64,000 nt of DNA from Haemophilus sputorum CCUG 13788 (lineage in GTDB: Bacteria; Pseudomonadota; Gammaproteobacteria; Enterobacterales; Pasteurellaceae), in the NCBI RefSeq assembly GCF_000238795.1, contig NZ_AFNK01000003.1, forward strand, positions 1 to 64,000, given 5' to 3'. The position numbers were made by a program, and so were the translations under genes. Shown here piece by piece: positions 24,085 to 41,075 of the stretch (position 1 is the stretch's first letter; each line of letters starts with the position of its first letter). The notes under the pieces are model-generated. The model was not told the origin of the DNA, ran no database searches, and was given only the letters and a program-made list of their open reading frames with translations.

Positions 24085-24131
24085 ACAAGCGGTCAGATTC
24101 TGCAAAACTTTTGCAAAATTTGACCGCTTGT
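24085..24131. terminator. Uptake-sequence hairpin behind gshF
   Basis: ACAAGCGGTC (24085-24094) pairs with GACCGCTTGT (24122-24131), and the inner TGCAAAA stretch extends the pairing. The IS begins at the very next base. Confidence 0.8.
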
Positions 24132-24176
24132 TGATCTGCACCCCAAAACCTGGACATCTAATTTGAGGTGCAGATT

Positions 24177-24551
24177 ATGTCCTACTCTTATCAATTTCGT
24201 TTGAAAATTATCAAACTCGTCACCGAACAGGATTATGGTATCCGTGAGGTGGCTAAACTTCATAAAATTTCCCACGCTCTCGTCATTTATTGGCTAAAAG
24301 CATTTCGGGAAAGGGGGCTTGATGGCGTAAAATCGCCTCATACAAACCTTCAAACACCGAAAATAGTGAAGCCAAAGATGAAAAAGAAAGACATTGAAAC
24401 TCCAGAAACTACAGACTTTTCACCTAAAGCGTTTAAAAAGTTACAACGAGAGCTCGCCTTGGCTCGAGCGGAGATTGCTTACCTAAAGGAGTTGGAGGTG
24501 CTCGACCGTCAAAAACAACGACAGAAAAAAGAAAAATCATTGAAAGATTGA
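24177..24551 (+). CDS. IS3-family transposase OrfA
   Basis: A 124-aa helix-turn-helix protein that binds the IS ends. Residues 5-50 form the HTH (FRLKIIKLV..YGIREVAKLHKIS..VIYWLKAF), and residues 78-105 form a leucine-zipper-like coil (LQRELALARAEIAYLKELEVL). The ATG at 24177 follows GAGG and is preferred over the GTG three codons upstream. A run of six A then G at 24525-24531 near the end is the likely -1 frameshift site for making the OrfAB transposase. Confidence 0.9.
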   Translation: MSYSYQFRLKIIKLVTEQDYGIREVAKLHKISHALVIYWLKAFRERGLDGVKSPHTNLQTPKIVKPKMKKKDIETPETTDFSPKAFKKLQRELALARAEIAYLKELEVLDRQKQRQKKEKSLKD

Positions 24552-25354
24552 AGCCAGACCACGCGTTAAATGATTTACTTCATGTGGCTAAAATGCCTCG
24601 CTCAAGCTTTTACTATAAAGAGATTAAGAGAAATTATCACGAGGTAAAAGAGGCTATCTTATCGCTGTATAAAAAGAACAGAAAGCGAGATGGTTATCGC
24701 CCCATGACGTTTAAATTACGCCAAATGGGTTTTAATTTGAATCATAAAACGGTGTTAAAGCTAATGAACGAGTTAGGTATTCATTCCATTTTACGCAAGA
24801 AAAGACATGGAAAACGTGGAAAAACATCGCATATTGCCCCGAATTTACTGAATCGTGATTTTACAGCAACAGCACTCAATCAAAAATGGGTAACGAATGT
24901 AACGGAATTTCATGTTGGGCAAGAAAAGCTTTATTTTTCACCGTTGATGGACTTGGCTAACCGAGAAATTATTGCCTATAACTTTGCGACACGCCCGAAG
25001 TTTTCATTGGTGAAAAAGATGTTAGAACAAGGACTTAGTCGAATTAAACCGATAGAATGCCCGATTATTCATAGCGACCAAGGCGTATTGTATGGCACGG
25101 CGGAATGGGTGAAAATGTTGGAGGGTAAAGCGGTTCAAAGTATGAGCCGCCGAGGAAATTGCTACGATAATGCGGTGATTGAAAGCTTTTTTGCAATATT
25201 AAAATCAGAGTGCTTTTACTCTCGGAATTATCATTCAATTGCTGAATTACAGGCTGAAATTGAAGAATATTTAGTGTATTACAACCAAAAACGAATTAAA
25301 CTTGGTTTAAAAGGATTGAGCCCAGTGCAATACCGAGCTCAATATTTAAGTTAA
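24548..25354 (+). CDS. IS3-family transposase OrfB, first catalytic Asp replaced by Asn
   Basis: The integrase-like catalytic part (268 codons from a TTG at 24548) is normally joined to OrfA by a -1 frameshift; its frame stays open upstream through the A6G site and reads KKEKIIERLKPDHALND. The HTH_21 region comes first, then the rve domain. The usual W-x-T-D-V/I-T motif reads WVTNVTEF: codon AAT at 24896-24898 gives Asn where the first catalytic Asp belongs. The second Asp (HSDQG) and the Glu (NAVIESFFAILKSE) are intact. The protein is full length but predicted to be unable to transpose. Confidence 0.88.
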   Translation: MKPDHALNDLLHVAKMPRSSFYYKEIKRNYHEVKEAILSLYKKNRKRDGYRPMTFKLRQMGFNLNHKTVLKLMNELGIHSILRKKRHGKRGKTSHIAPNLLNRDFTATALNQKWVTNVTEFHVGQEKLYFSPLMDLANREIIAYNFATRPKFSLVKKMLEQGLSRIKPIECPIIHSDQGVLYGTAEWVKMLEGKAVQSMSRRGNCYDNAVIESFFAILKSECFYSRNYHSIAELQAEIEEYLVYYNQKRIKLGLKGLSPVQYRAQYLS

Positions 25355-25394
25355 CTAACCTGTCCAACTTTTGGGGGGCAGATCACTTAGACGA

Positions 25395-27350
25395 TTATTT
25401 ATCTAATTGAACGGGAAGAAATAAGCTCAATGGTCGTTTTTTCACAATTTGGCAAACTTCATGCCAAATTGGCCACCAGCTATCAATTTCCGCATTCAAA
25501 GAACGCAGTGCAACCCAAAGTGTTAATGAAAAACTGACAATTAAATTCACTAAACCAATCAACAATACAAAACCAATGCATTGTAAAAGCAATGAATAGG
25601 TGAATTGTCCGCTCACAGCAATATAGCCTACATTCGCAGATGAAAATGCCACATGACGAATATCTAACGGAAGGTGCGTTAAGTAACCCACTACACCCGT
25701 AATCCCAAGCAACATACCAAAACAAAGGTTACCGATAAGCGAGCCATAATTCTCATGTATATAATTAGCAAATTTAACGCGAGATTTCTCAGACATTATT
25801 TTTTTCAATAACGGATGCTGGGTTAAACGCATACGCATATTCAAATAATTGCTGCGGTTATCAAAATAGCCCGAAATAATCCCCGAGCAGAATAACCATA
25901 CTCCCGCAATGGCTGCAAACCATAAGGTTCCTGCGAAAGGATCAATGCTATGTAACTGATAAGCGATTTGATCGGCATTCATCAACGGCTCACCTGTTTT
26001 ATATTGGTAACCAAACGCAATCAATGCCGCTAAGCCCATCGCAATGAGAACATTACCTAGCACCGCAATACTTTGAGAGCGAAATACATCCACTAATAAC
26101 TGAGCTAATTTCATATTGACAGTTTTACCTTGGGGCGTTTTCTCGACGGCCTCAGCAAAACGGGCTGCTGTCATGGCTGGCTGTTTCGTCGCTACCGTAA
26201 AATGCAACATAAAGATCACCATAAAACCTAAGCCGTAATTTAAGCCTTCGGCAATCCCTTTCCAGACTTTATCATCAATAATGCTACCTAGATAGATTTT
26301 AAATAGCGCCATCAGTGCAATTAATACACCACCACCTGCCGCAGAATAAAACATTGCCCAGTACTCTTTTTTATCTCGAGTAATGTAATGCTCGCCGTGG
26401 TCTCCAGCATTCTGCGTAACACTACGAGCAATTAATCTTGAGCTTTGTTTCCATAATCGGGTGATGCTATGTTTTTCTGCTGCAGCGCGAGCAAAACAGC
26501 CGATTAATAACAATATTCGGCGTGGTAAATAGCGATTTGAAACAAAAATCGCCATCAAGGTTTCTAATCGTTCTAAAGTCTGAGAAAGACGCTCCAATAA
26601 ATAAGCCGTATTTAAAGAAGAACCGACCACTGCCCCACGTTTTTGCAAACGCTCAACCAATTTTTTACATTGGCTAAACATTACCTGCAAATGACTATCA
26701 TCAAAAACGGTTGATTGTCGGCGCGCCTGTAACCAATTCACCACTTCATGGTGTAATGCGACAAAAGGGGAATCAGCATTCAACAGAGAGGGCTCCATTC
26801 GCATCAGCTCAGGATCCATATCTTCAGCCGCAATCCAAATTGAAAGCATCTCTATGGCAAATAGCCCTTCACTTTCAATATGATTTTTTAAACGTTCACG
26901 ATCTTTTTGTTCTGTATAACGAGTTAAAACGCCAAATAAGCCTCGCCACGTTTTTAAAGGAACGGCATCAATCCAGCGCGCATCATTTTTATCGCTAAAC
27001 AATAAATAAAAAATATCACGTAAATCATTAATATCTTTAAAAGAGGGGTTAAAACGCTCATAAATACGCGTTTTCATTTCTTGCCCAAAACCGCCACGCG
27101 TAAGAATACCACTACTAATAAACAATGGGTAAAGACGTAAACCACATAACCAACCACATAATAATTTCGAAACAGAACAGCCTAATTCTTTATCGTTCTT
27201 TAAGATAAACTTAAAAAAATGCAAGGTTGGAGAAATTTTTTCTGTAGGGCTACTACGTAATAATTGACACAGCCCTTCCACAAGACCAAAAGCATCATTT
27301 TCCTCGACTTTATTACGCAAAAATTGCGGTAAAGTATCCAGTTTTATCAT
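25395..27350 (-). CDS. Membrane protein of the 'site-specific recombinase' family (PF10136)
   Basis: A 651-aa protein. The first half (about 1-330) is soluble and helical; the second half has about six membrane helices (between about 335 and 630). It belongs to the family named after Neisseria Gcr, annotated as a recombinase, but nothing in it resembles a tyrosine or serine recombinase, and the membrane helices argue against that role. The true function is unknown. GGAGGAA stands 7 nt before the ATG at 27350, which is preferred over the start five codons upstream. An IS ends 9 bp after its stop codon. Confidence 0.8.
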   Translation of the reverse strand: MIKLDTLPQFLRNKVEENDAFGLVEGLCQLLRSSPTEKISPTLHFFKFILKNDKELGCSVSKLLCGWLCGLRLYPLFISSGILTRGGFGQEMKTRIYERFNPSFKDINDLRDIFYLLFSDKNDARWIDAVPLKTWRGLFGVLTRYTEQKDRERLKNHIESEGLFAIEMLSIWIAAEDMDPELMRMEPSLLNADSPFVALHHEVVNWLQARRQSTVFDDSHLQVMFSQCKKLVERLQKRGAVVGSSLNTAYLLERLSQTLERLETLMAIFVSNRYLPRRILLLIGCFARAAAEKHSITRLWKQSSRLIARSVTQNAGDHGEHYITRDKKEYWAMFYSAAGGGVLIALMALFKIYLGSIIDDKVWKGIAEGLNYGLGFMVIFMLHFTVATKQPAMTAARFAEAVEKTPQGKTVNMKLAQLLVDVFRSQSIAVLGNVLIAMGLAALIAFGYQYKTGEPLMNADQIAYQLHSIDPFAGTLWFAAIAGVWLFCSGIISGYFDNRSNYLNMRMRLTQHPLLKKIMSEKSRVKFANYIHENYGSLIGNLCFGMLLGITGVVGYLTHLPLDIRHVAFSSANVGYIAVSGQFTYSLLLQCIGFVLLIGLVNLIVSFSLTLWVALRSLNAEIDSWWPIWHEVCQIVKKRPLSLFLPVQLDK

Positions 27351-27429
27351 GCTTTCCTCCTTCAATCGTTTATATTCAAAGGGTAAATATTATACAGATC
27401 TGTTAGGGAAAATAAAAATGAAAGGAAAA

Positions 27430-27447
27430 GTGATCTGCCCCCAAAAA
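27430..27447. mobile_element. Stray IS end
   Basis: GTGATCTGCCCCCAAAAA repeats the terminal sequence of the IS at 24132-25385, with one C fewer in the C run. No transposase sequence adjoins. Together with the IS right end at 25373-25386 it brackets the gene at 25395-27350 with an inverted repeat. An uptake word follows at 27451. Confidence 0.65.
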
Positions 27448-27465
27448 TTTGACCGCTTGTTTTTT

Positions 27466-39834: not shown

Positions 39835-39910
39835 ACATTTAATTCTTTTAGAACATTCATTTTATGATTCACAATCAAAAATTGATAATTTGATTAAAAC
39901 ACTATATTAT

Positions 39911-39936
39911 TTTACTAAAGTATACTCTTTTAGTAA
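39911..39936 (+). promoter_or_regulatory. Promoter framed by an inverted repeat
   Basis: TTACTAAA (39912-39919) and TTTAGTAA (39929-39936) flank a -10-like TATACT (39921-39926). The layout suggests an operator placed across the -10. The arms end 11 bp before the lipoprotein start, so the ribosome site overlaps the right arm. Confidence 0.45.
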
Positions 39937-39947
39937 GGAAATGTATC

Positions 39948-40835
39948 ATGCGCTCTCATAAGATTAAACTAATTTGTTTGGCTGCACTTGCAACCTTTTT
40001 AACAAGTTGCTCAACAATGTATAACCCATTAGACACTTTATACTGGCATGGTAAAGAAGACTATGAGTTTTTTGCTCGAAAACGTTTACCAGATGAATCT
40101 TATCAATGCTTTAAAGACAATGAAAAAAGTTATATTCACGCTTATCGACTTGCTCTTTATGATTTACAAACCTATGAAGTTGGCAGAAATTCTAGAACAA
40201 TCTTTCTGACAACCGAAAAAGTCTATACTGGCGGTCATACATGGACTTATGTATTTACAGATGCAAACCATAAAATCACATCTATTAGAGATGCCACCGG
40301 GTTTGGTGACATTGAAAAAGAATTTGGTTGTGGTGAGTATCAAGAAGCAGTAAAAATTGCTACACCAGAAGAACTAAAAAAACGCAAAATTAAACCTAGA
40401 TTATGGGCGGCTATTGCTCGCTCTCCAGAAATAAATCAAATGATGTGGGCTTCAGATGCCGCCTATAGCACGCTTGAGCAAGCCAAACAAGATGCACTAA
40501 AACAATGTCAAGAGTATGGTGGTAAAGACTGCCAATTAGCGATTGGCATAAGTAATATGTGTTTAGGGCTAGCTAGCGGTAGAGATAGTAGCGGTTTGAG
40601 AGATTACTTTGGAAATAGTATTATCCCTGAGCACGCAAAAGCAATGGCAGTTGAGAATTGCCAAGCAAAAGGAGGCTCATCTTGTGAACCAAGCCCAGCA
40701 CCGTCGCTTTGTGCCCTACCGTGCGATATGCTTAAAGATAAAACTTGTAACTTCGATAGCCCTCAGGTCATCATGCCAGGGGTTAAAGGCGGAAAAGCAT
40801 TTAATGTAGCATTAGATGGTAACGTAATTAAATAG
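39948..40835 (+). CDS. Lipoprotein with DUF4189 domain
   Basis: A 295-aa lipoprotein; lipobox LTSC (Cys21). The N-terminal half (about 25-145) is not recognised. The C-terminal half (about 155-265) is a cysteine-rich DUF4189-like domain: WAAIARSPE, then SDAAYSTLEQAKQDALKQC, with several paired cysteines expected to form disulfides in the periplasm. No function is known. TAAGGAA precedes the ATG. It stands alone, and the remains of an IS follow 14 bp after its stop. Confidence 0.82.
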   Translation: MRSHKIKLICLAALATFLTSCSTMYNPLDTLYWHGKEDYEFFARKRLPDESYQCFKDNEKSYIHAYRLALYDLQTYEVGRNSRTIFLTTEKVYTGGHTWTYVFTDANHKITSIRDATGFGDIEKEFGCGEYQEAVKIATPEELKKRKIKPRLWAAIARSPEINQMMWASDAAYSTLEQAKQDALKQCQEYGGKDCQLAIGISNMCLGLASGRDSSGLRDYFGNSIIPEHAKAMAVENCQAKGGSSCEPSPAPSLCALPCDMLKDKTCNFDSPQVIMPGVKGGKAFNVALDGNVIK

Positions 40836-40849
40836 CCTACTTCCAAAAT

Positions 40850-41028
40850 TGATCTGCACTTAAAAATTAGGACACCTAATTTGAAGTGCAGATTATGTTT
40901 TATTCTTATCAATCTCGTTTAGAAATGATTAAACTGGTCATCAAGCAGGATTGTGGTATTTGTAAGCTAGTTAAATACAAGAATTTGGGATAGATTCCTA
41001 ACATATCTAACTTTTTATGCGCAGATTA
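40850..41028 (+). mobile_element. Internally deleted IS derivative, 179 bp
   Basis: The left end TGATCTGCAC and the following ~140 bp run parallel to the left end of the IS at 24132 (shared ACCTAATTTGAAGTGCAGATTATG-like leader, one substitution from the full copy's version). The right end CTAACATATCTAACTTTTT...GCAGATTA parallels that IS's right end. Everything between, including all of orfB, is gone. The result has the size and form of a MITE. Its right end abuts an uptake-sequence hairpin (41029). Confidence 0.82.
40895..40993 (+). pseudogene. Truncated orfA in the IS derivative
   Basis: A 32-codon reading frame MFYSYQSRLEMIKLV... that aligns with the N-terminus of the intact IS OrfA (MSYSYQFRLKIIKLV...), then ends at a TAG. 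It has diverged at about a third of its residues, so the insertion is old or from a sister IS. Confidence 0.75.
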
Positions 41029-41075
41029 ACAAGCGGCCAGATTTCGCAAAATTTTTGCAGAATCTGACCGCTTGT
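41029..41075. repeat. Uptake-sequence hairpin behind znuA
   Basis: ACAAGCGGCC (41029-41038, one mismatch to the uptake word) faces a perfect GACCGCTTGT (41066-41075). It lies 29 bp beyond the znuA stop and probably ends znuA transcription on the minus strand. Confidence 0.75.

Follow-up and report, generated by a model that had tools for sequence, protein, structure and literature searches.

The window, a 64,000-nucleotide stretch of DNA from Haemophilus sputorum CCUG 13788 (contig NZ_AFNK01000003.1, positions 1 to 64,000), contains a full insertion sequence (IS) and an internally deleted derivative of it, each lying against an inverted pair of uptake sequences (USSs); the question raised by this locus is whether the element selects USSs as its target. 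An earlier note on this DNA had described the left end of the full IS and the right end of the deleted copy as adjoining such pairs, and both contacts were found to be exact to the base. The left terminus TGATCTGCACCCC starts at 24132, directly after the USS pair (24131/24132); the deleted copy runs to 41028 with ...GCGCAGATTA as its right terminus, and the other pair begins at the next base (41028/41029). The two contacts use different ends of the element, IRL in the full copy and IRR in the deleted one. Both USS pairs were predicted to fold into strong hairpins, with energies of -30.2 kcal/mol for the pair at 24085-24131 and -26.4 kcal/mol for the pair at 41029-41075 (0/200 shuffles as good in each case). 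In total, 18 Apl-type (ACAAGCGGT) and 2 Hin-type (AAGTGCGGT) USS 9-mers were counted in the 64 kb. According to the sections of PMC1626085 drawn on here, which report the USS consensus and uptake tests, GCGGT is common to both USS dialects (ANNNGCGGT), and exact USS 9-mers number from 742 to 1485 per genome in five Pasteurellaceae genomes.

Table 1. Features of the IS, of the adjoining uptake sequences and of the segment to the right of the IS; positions are those of the window except for the sister IS.
Feature	Position	Strand	Remarks
Apl-type USS inverted pair ACAAGCGGTCAGATTCTGC...TTTGACCGCTTGT (hairpin)	24085..24131	.	touches IS left end; sequence and fold
Full IS (family A), 1254 bp	24132..25385	+	IRL TGATCTGCACCCCAAAA / IRR TGATCTGCCCCCCAAAA
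OrfA, helix-turn-helix transposase part	24177..24551	+	ATG start by eye; mechanical ORF start 24168
OrfB, DDE integrase part, IS3 family	24548..25354	+	NF033516, rve domains
Putatively imported 2-kb segment	25386..27430	.	starts with CTT half-site of Hin-type USS, ends AAAAG
PF10136 (SpecificRecomb) gene within the segment	25395..27365	-	
16-bp IS right-end remnant TGATCTGCCCCCAAAA	27431..27446	-	far edge of segment
Half Apl-type USS GACCGCTTGT	27451..27460	.	after IS remnant; sequence
Internally deleted IS derivative, 179 bp	40850..41028	+	sequence read
Apl-type USS inverted pair ACAAGCGGCC...GACCGCTTGT	41029..41075	.	touches right end of deleted copy; sequence and fold
Sister IS reference copy, 1244 bp	L040:2810-4053		

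The element of the window is, by its domains and termini, an IS3-family insertion sequence: the family's HTH_21 and DDE core, two overlapping ORFs, TG...CA inverted repeats and a short (3-5 bp) target duplication were all found. OrfB matched NCBIfam NF033516 with 276.9 bits (cut-off 160) and the Pfam models HTH_21, rve, rve_2 and rve_3; OrfA scored above the cut-offs of PF01527, PF13518 and PF13384 and matched the NCBIfam IS3 model under its cut-off. The reading frames of OrfA and OrfB overlap by 4 nt (24548-24551), and OrfB is probably made by a frameshift from OrfA. Both IS termini read TGATCTGC.CCCC. The nearest plasmid-borne relatives of OrfB include ISPsy9-family (50.9%) and E. coli copies (49.3%, one of them annotated as InsK of IS150); in OrfB, the element thus resembles IS150 and ISPsy9 within the IS3 family. 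IS150 is not known to target USS or REP. When the IS DNA was compared with E. coli, no place covered 80% of the query, coverage being at most 20% among the matches listed.

The genome of the strain (2.14 Mb) contained six copies or parts of the IS. Five of the six touched a USS at 0 bp, four via the left end and the deleted copy via the right end; no USS contact was found for the 5'-truncated copy L003. Copy L004, situated on another contig, touched a Hin-type USS, and copy L002 had both a USS contact and a TAT/TAT duplication.

The IS DNA was used to search 140 Pasteurellaceae genomes (E <= 1e-15, two candidates scored per genome), and matches were found in 46 of them, belonging to 13 of 43 genera. 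A deeper search took in the strain's own genome and 27 of these 46; copy numbers are thus incomplete, and not every end-bearing place was fetched. The 229 ends obtained comprised 206 distinct ones, of which 185 belonged to family A (ends at least 69% identical to the window IS), and 158 were left after merging orthologous flanks by shared 11-mers. The 21 ends below 69% identity, some of them from a sister family, were tabulated apart, three being within the set of 60 USSs used for the pairing analysis. A USS contact was defined as at least four of five matches to GCGGT at offset 4, for which the control predicts about 1.6 chance cases. The contacts of L107 and L155 look like such chance cases.

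Offsets were analyzed for 157 ends, one of the 158 being excluded because its flank was shorter than 150 bp. An outward-facing exact USS 9-mer of either dialect stood at offset 0 in 36 of the 157 flanks, compared with 11 at offsets 1-140 together. The GCGGT core (at least 4/5) was found at offset 0 in 56 of the 157, the other offsets having a mean of 1.56 and never more than 6; these controls are all positional, the same flanks controlling for location and base composition. Since the excess sits at a single-base offset, selection alone is disfavoured. The earlier note had proposed mapping the distances of all copies in this genome and its relatives, on the expectation that they lie close to uptake sequences; the excess at offset 0 agrees with this expectation, and copies with no contact, such as L003, depart from it. 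The IS end facing the USS was IRL in 31 and IRR in 29 of the 60 contacts.

Among the 158 flanks, 57 had the USS core at the IS end and 71 were of the half-site type, beginning with YTT, TGT or TAT, a start that is weak evidence when taken singly. Five flanks lay on the loop side of the core, one had ACCGC at offset 0, and 24 were none of these, although three of the 24 carried a USS shifted by one base. Because every insertion has a USS on one side and a half-site on the other, this mixture is roughly what is expected if most copies were inserted at USSs. The first three flank bases were CTT in 51, AAG in 37, ACA in 9 and TGT in 6 of the 158 flanks.

The insertion point was AAG^TGCGGT in the Hin-type and ACA^AGCGGT in the Apl-type USS, in both dialects 4 nt before GCGGT. 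After insertion, a complete USS stands against one IS end and a three-base half-site (AAG/CTT or ACA/TGT) at the other; the uptake tag is not destroyed, since the 3-bp duplication leaves this complete USS in place. Copies with two ends were reduced to a single representative for each merged site (35 of 53, with L002 subsumed under L059 and scored as having no USS). A USS was present at one or both ends in 21 of these 35 non-redundant copies. Perfect 3-bp target duplications were found in 12 of the 35 (AAG/CTT in ten, ACA in one, and AAA in one), and 11 of the 12 had a USS at one end, the exception being the AAA copy, L014. The 14 copies scored as without a USS comprised four reading AAG[IS]CTT, one with a shift of 1 nt, two on the loop side and seven unexplained. 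The specificity described here is read from standing copies, already filtered by selection. In L024, L102, L072 and L163, which read AAG[IS]CTT with a USS at neither end, the IS seems to stand in place of an entire USS hairpin.

A sister IS was found with about 66% identity to the window IS over the last 250 bases. Its matches were distributed over five of the nine genomes searched (40 in G078, 22 in G081, 12 each in G073 and G076, and 1 in G077), and no match was found in the other four. The 87 matches yielded 65 distinct two-ended copies and 60 sites after merging, the rest being fragments or not fetched. The exact core lay within 12 nt of an end in 63 of the 65 copies, L278 and L290 having a one-base variant, and in 58 of the 60 non-redundant sites. 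A distance of 4-7 nt between core and IS occurred 85 times, versus 0.11 occurrences per offset at 60-140. The sister IS was inserted in the loop of the USS hairpin or just 3' of a USS, mostly 5-6 nt past the core; a target duplication of 3-4 bp was present in 50 of the 60 non-redundant sites, and cores on both sides, by a loose pattern, in 51 of the 65. Judged by these positions, two related ISs use opposite sides of one motif. In five family-A copies (L011, L015, L048, L049 and L059), one end lay on the loop side, where the sister family typically inserts; these copies are possibly products of exchange between the two families.

The earlier note had suggested that the IS targets these hairpins. 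An inverted partner within 75 bp was sought for the 60 contacted USSs (all ends with at least 65% identity) and was present in 33 and absent in 27. Six doubtful cases among the latter were set aside. L107 and L155 were probably chance matches, the sister IS had displaced the partner in L040, the partner was degenerate in L052 and L056, and the flank of L093 was cut; 21 unpaired contacted USSs were left. Since unpaired contacts exist, the hairpin as a strict requirement was rejected. In a strict test with exact 9-mers, 22 of 38 targets were paired, as opposed to 44 of 147 non-coding background USSs (Fisher p = 0.002); 5 of 118 coding-like background USSs were paired. By these counts, USS pairs are preferred but not required, and what the IS targets is the USS motif, not the hairpin. 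We infer that this preference reflects better targeting of paired USSs and not a higher tolerance of insertions there. Of the earlier suggestion, targeting of USSs holds, with one exact position in several genera, but the hairpin as the target does not.

Two further statements of that note, that the sites lie between genes and that uptake sequences serve as landing sites for mobile DNA, agree with our data: the former was largely so, and this IS family does insert at USSs in several genera. By a rough open-frame test, which is not annotation, 12 of 56 USS-side flanks of family A were open through 150 bp, versus 862 of 1000 random window positions, and one of 65 sister-family sites was open in both 150-bp flanks.

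Relatives of OrfB with 36-46% identity over most of its length were found in Firmicutes, Bacteroides bins and a Mycoplasmatota genome. We examined 27 distant loci (L184-L201 among them); both IS ends could be set in seven and could not in 20. In five of the seven, from the genera Sediminibacillus, Bacillus, Bacteroides and Lactobacillus, the IS occupies the centre of a palindrome with no relation to the USS (0/300 shuffles as good for each; dyad p < 1/300), and both failures, L188 and L184, are from Sediminibacillus. L188 looks like a product of exchange between copies, since it shares its left flank with L186 and has on the right the complement of the left flank of L187. From this small sample, palindrome targeting seems to be the older trait, with USS targeting as a local variant.

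The reading that we favour, with a probability of about 0.92, is that this is an IS3-family element whose transposase directs insertion to the USS, 4 nt upstream of GCGGT in either dialect. Three other explanations were weighed against it. Random insertion, with copies elsewhere purged and those at intergenic USS terminators surviving, would fit the largely intergenic location of the sites, including the 1/65 sister sites open on both sides. It accounts neither for the concentration of core matches at offset 0 (56, where other offsets average 1.56 and reach 6 at most) nor for the consistent AAG/CTT duplication; this combination of random insertion and selection was rejected by the offset control, and we regard it as hardly credible. 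The USS might instead be part of the mobile unit, moved together with the IS and not targeted by it, as the contact on the USS side at nearly always 0 bp would allow. Loops, arms and flanks past the core vary between sites, however, both dialects are contacted, and the opposite end holds the duplicated half-site. In addition, the USS persists in relatives that lack the IS: the loci L300, L301 and L302 hold an intact USS where the window and the genomes G024, G061 and G069 have IS ends. An element-carried USS was rejected on the grounds of variable flanks, half-site duplications and empty sites, and its probability is negligible.

A more serious alternative is that the IS targets terminator hairpins in general, USSs being struck since many terminators in these genomes are inverted USS pairs. 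The enrichment of pairs among the targets (22/38 versus 44/147 in the non-coding background), the cores on both sides of 51/65 sister sites and the location of the distant relatives in unrelated palindromes are all in its favour. A rule based on structure alone does not, however, predict an excess at one offset from GCGGT, and 27 of the 60 contacted USSs (21 after removal of doubtful cases) are unpaired, with insertion at the same base relative to GCGGT either way. We therefore consider general terminator targeting improbable, though less so than the two preceding explanations. If insertion is directed to the USS, as we favour, the transposase, perhaps with a host factor, would recognise the GCGGT core, and more strongly as an inverted pair; such recognition may be a retuned form of the palindrome targeting of the distant relatives. 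With this specificity, hundreds of sites in each genome would be open to the IS, many lying outside genes.

Insertion of IS1397 and ISKpn1 into REP palindromes is reportedly described in Clement 1999 and in Wilde 2001 and 2003. As summarized in the sections of PMC1525189 used here, these IS3-family elements undergo transposase-directed insertion into REP palindromic units. The window IS is like them in belonging to the IS3 family and in its fixed position within a short repeated palindromic intergenic sequence, but its target is the USS, a sequence known to function in natural transformation; unpaired USSs serve as targets too, and family A sits at the outer edge. The same sections list ISPsy8 (IS3), ISPa11, ISPpu9/ISPpu10 and IS621 (IS110) as other REP-associated ISs, with association in 6/6 cases for ISPa11, 7/7 for ISPpu9 and 7/7 for ISPpu10, and IS1106 of Neisseria meningitidis as associated with type 2 REP (PMC1525189). 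The window IS shares with these elements the tie to an abundant species-specific intergenic repeat, although their targets are REP elements. DNA uptake sequences are also present in the host of IS1106, as USSs are in the hosts considered here. The main text of PMC1525189 does not contain the terms uptake, Haemophilus or Pasteurella. No report of IS insertion at USS or DUS was found in our literature search, in which subscription papers were thinly covered, so that an earlier one may be in print. REP targeting by IS3-family ISs is already established, and the USS as a target follows the same logic with a new target.

The IS was also compared between genera. Full-length copies with 94-96% identity to the window IS were found in the genera g19, g21 and g38, and those of other genera had 89% (g5) and 82% (g18). 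The gshAB-like gene to the left of the window IS had 70-76% identity in the 10 other genomes with a match. Because the IS copies are 94-96% identical while this neighbouring gene is 70-76% identical, the IS appears to be mobile between genera.

The DNA to the right of the window IS differs from its surroundings. The region 25384-27432 had 95.6% identity with H. parainfluenzae (L300, G076) and 95.3% with G078, versus 68-69% with the window's own genus (G001, G002); matching parts of the rest of this 19.9-kb window stretch had 67-81% with the five genomes compared. At both borders of the segment, L300, L301 and L302 have intact Hin-type USSs and no IS, and the donor-like loci read AAAAG|TGCGGTC where the window holds the 16-bp IS remnant. 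Thus, the 2-kb segment looks like an import from an H. parainfluenzae-like donor, bounded by the IS and an IS remnant. The flanks of the full window copy, TGT on the left and CTT on the right, form no matching target duplication; this would be explained if the IS joins a host site of Apl type to an imported site of Hin type.

The arrangement recalls a composite transposon: the PF10136 gene has an IS on both sides in G061, G024 and G069, and a full IS and the 16-bp remnant enclose it in the window. It is unlike a composite transposon in that the borders are USSs flanking the gene in H. parainfluenzae and that no outer target duplication was recognised. Such units may have moved either as composite transposons or through uptake followed by recombination at the IS, exchange being as likely as transposition. 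Copy L002 borders DNA with 98% identity to G078 and 96% to G076, and 66% over part of its length in G001; no match to this DNA was found in G002.

Discussions of why USSs accumulate usually invoke uptake bias, terminator use or genome maintenance. Mobile elements that read the USS code would be a new actor, with USSs as harbours for ISs and a docked IS inheriting the uptake tag. DNA fragments carrying a copy docked beside an intact USS may be preferentially taken up, and IS copies at USS edges could supply the homology through which genera exchange genes; such copies would be junctions of inter-genus exchange, as in the window itself. Whether these ISs exploit natural transformation, USS docking in both dialects tagging the DNA of a copy for uptake by Pasteurellaceae and the ISs giving homology for integration, is a tentative proposal to which we give somewhat less than even odds. 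If it is true, the transposons of a bacterial family have adopted its transformation code for their own dispersal and landing, and predictions on the spread of ISs in competent bacteria follow that can be tested. Two USS dialects, two insertion positions and palindrome-targeting relatives also form a natural series for target choice by IS3 transposases.

Several minor observations concern the remaining copies. The flank of L004 matched Haemophilus-group genomes only in part (91% over 367 bp), which was not counted as firm evidence of transfer. The flanks of L003, L004, L005 (G000:C57) and L006 (window 39861-40850) had about 87-98% identity to Haemophilus-group or A. segnis loci over 200-1000 bases; these stretches may be further imported patches. 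Sequence CABDVE010000001.1 (L176, L183), titled Pseudomonas stutzeri NCTC11607, corresponds by position to the Pasteurellaceae genome G128, and its title looks wrong.
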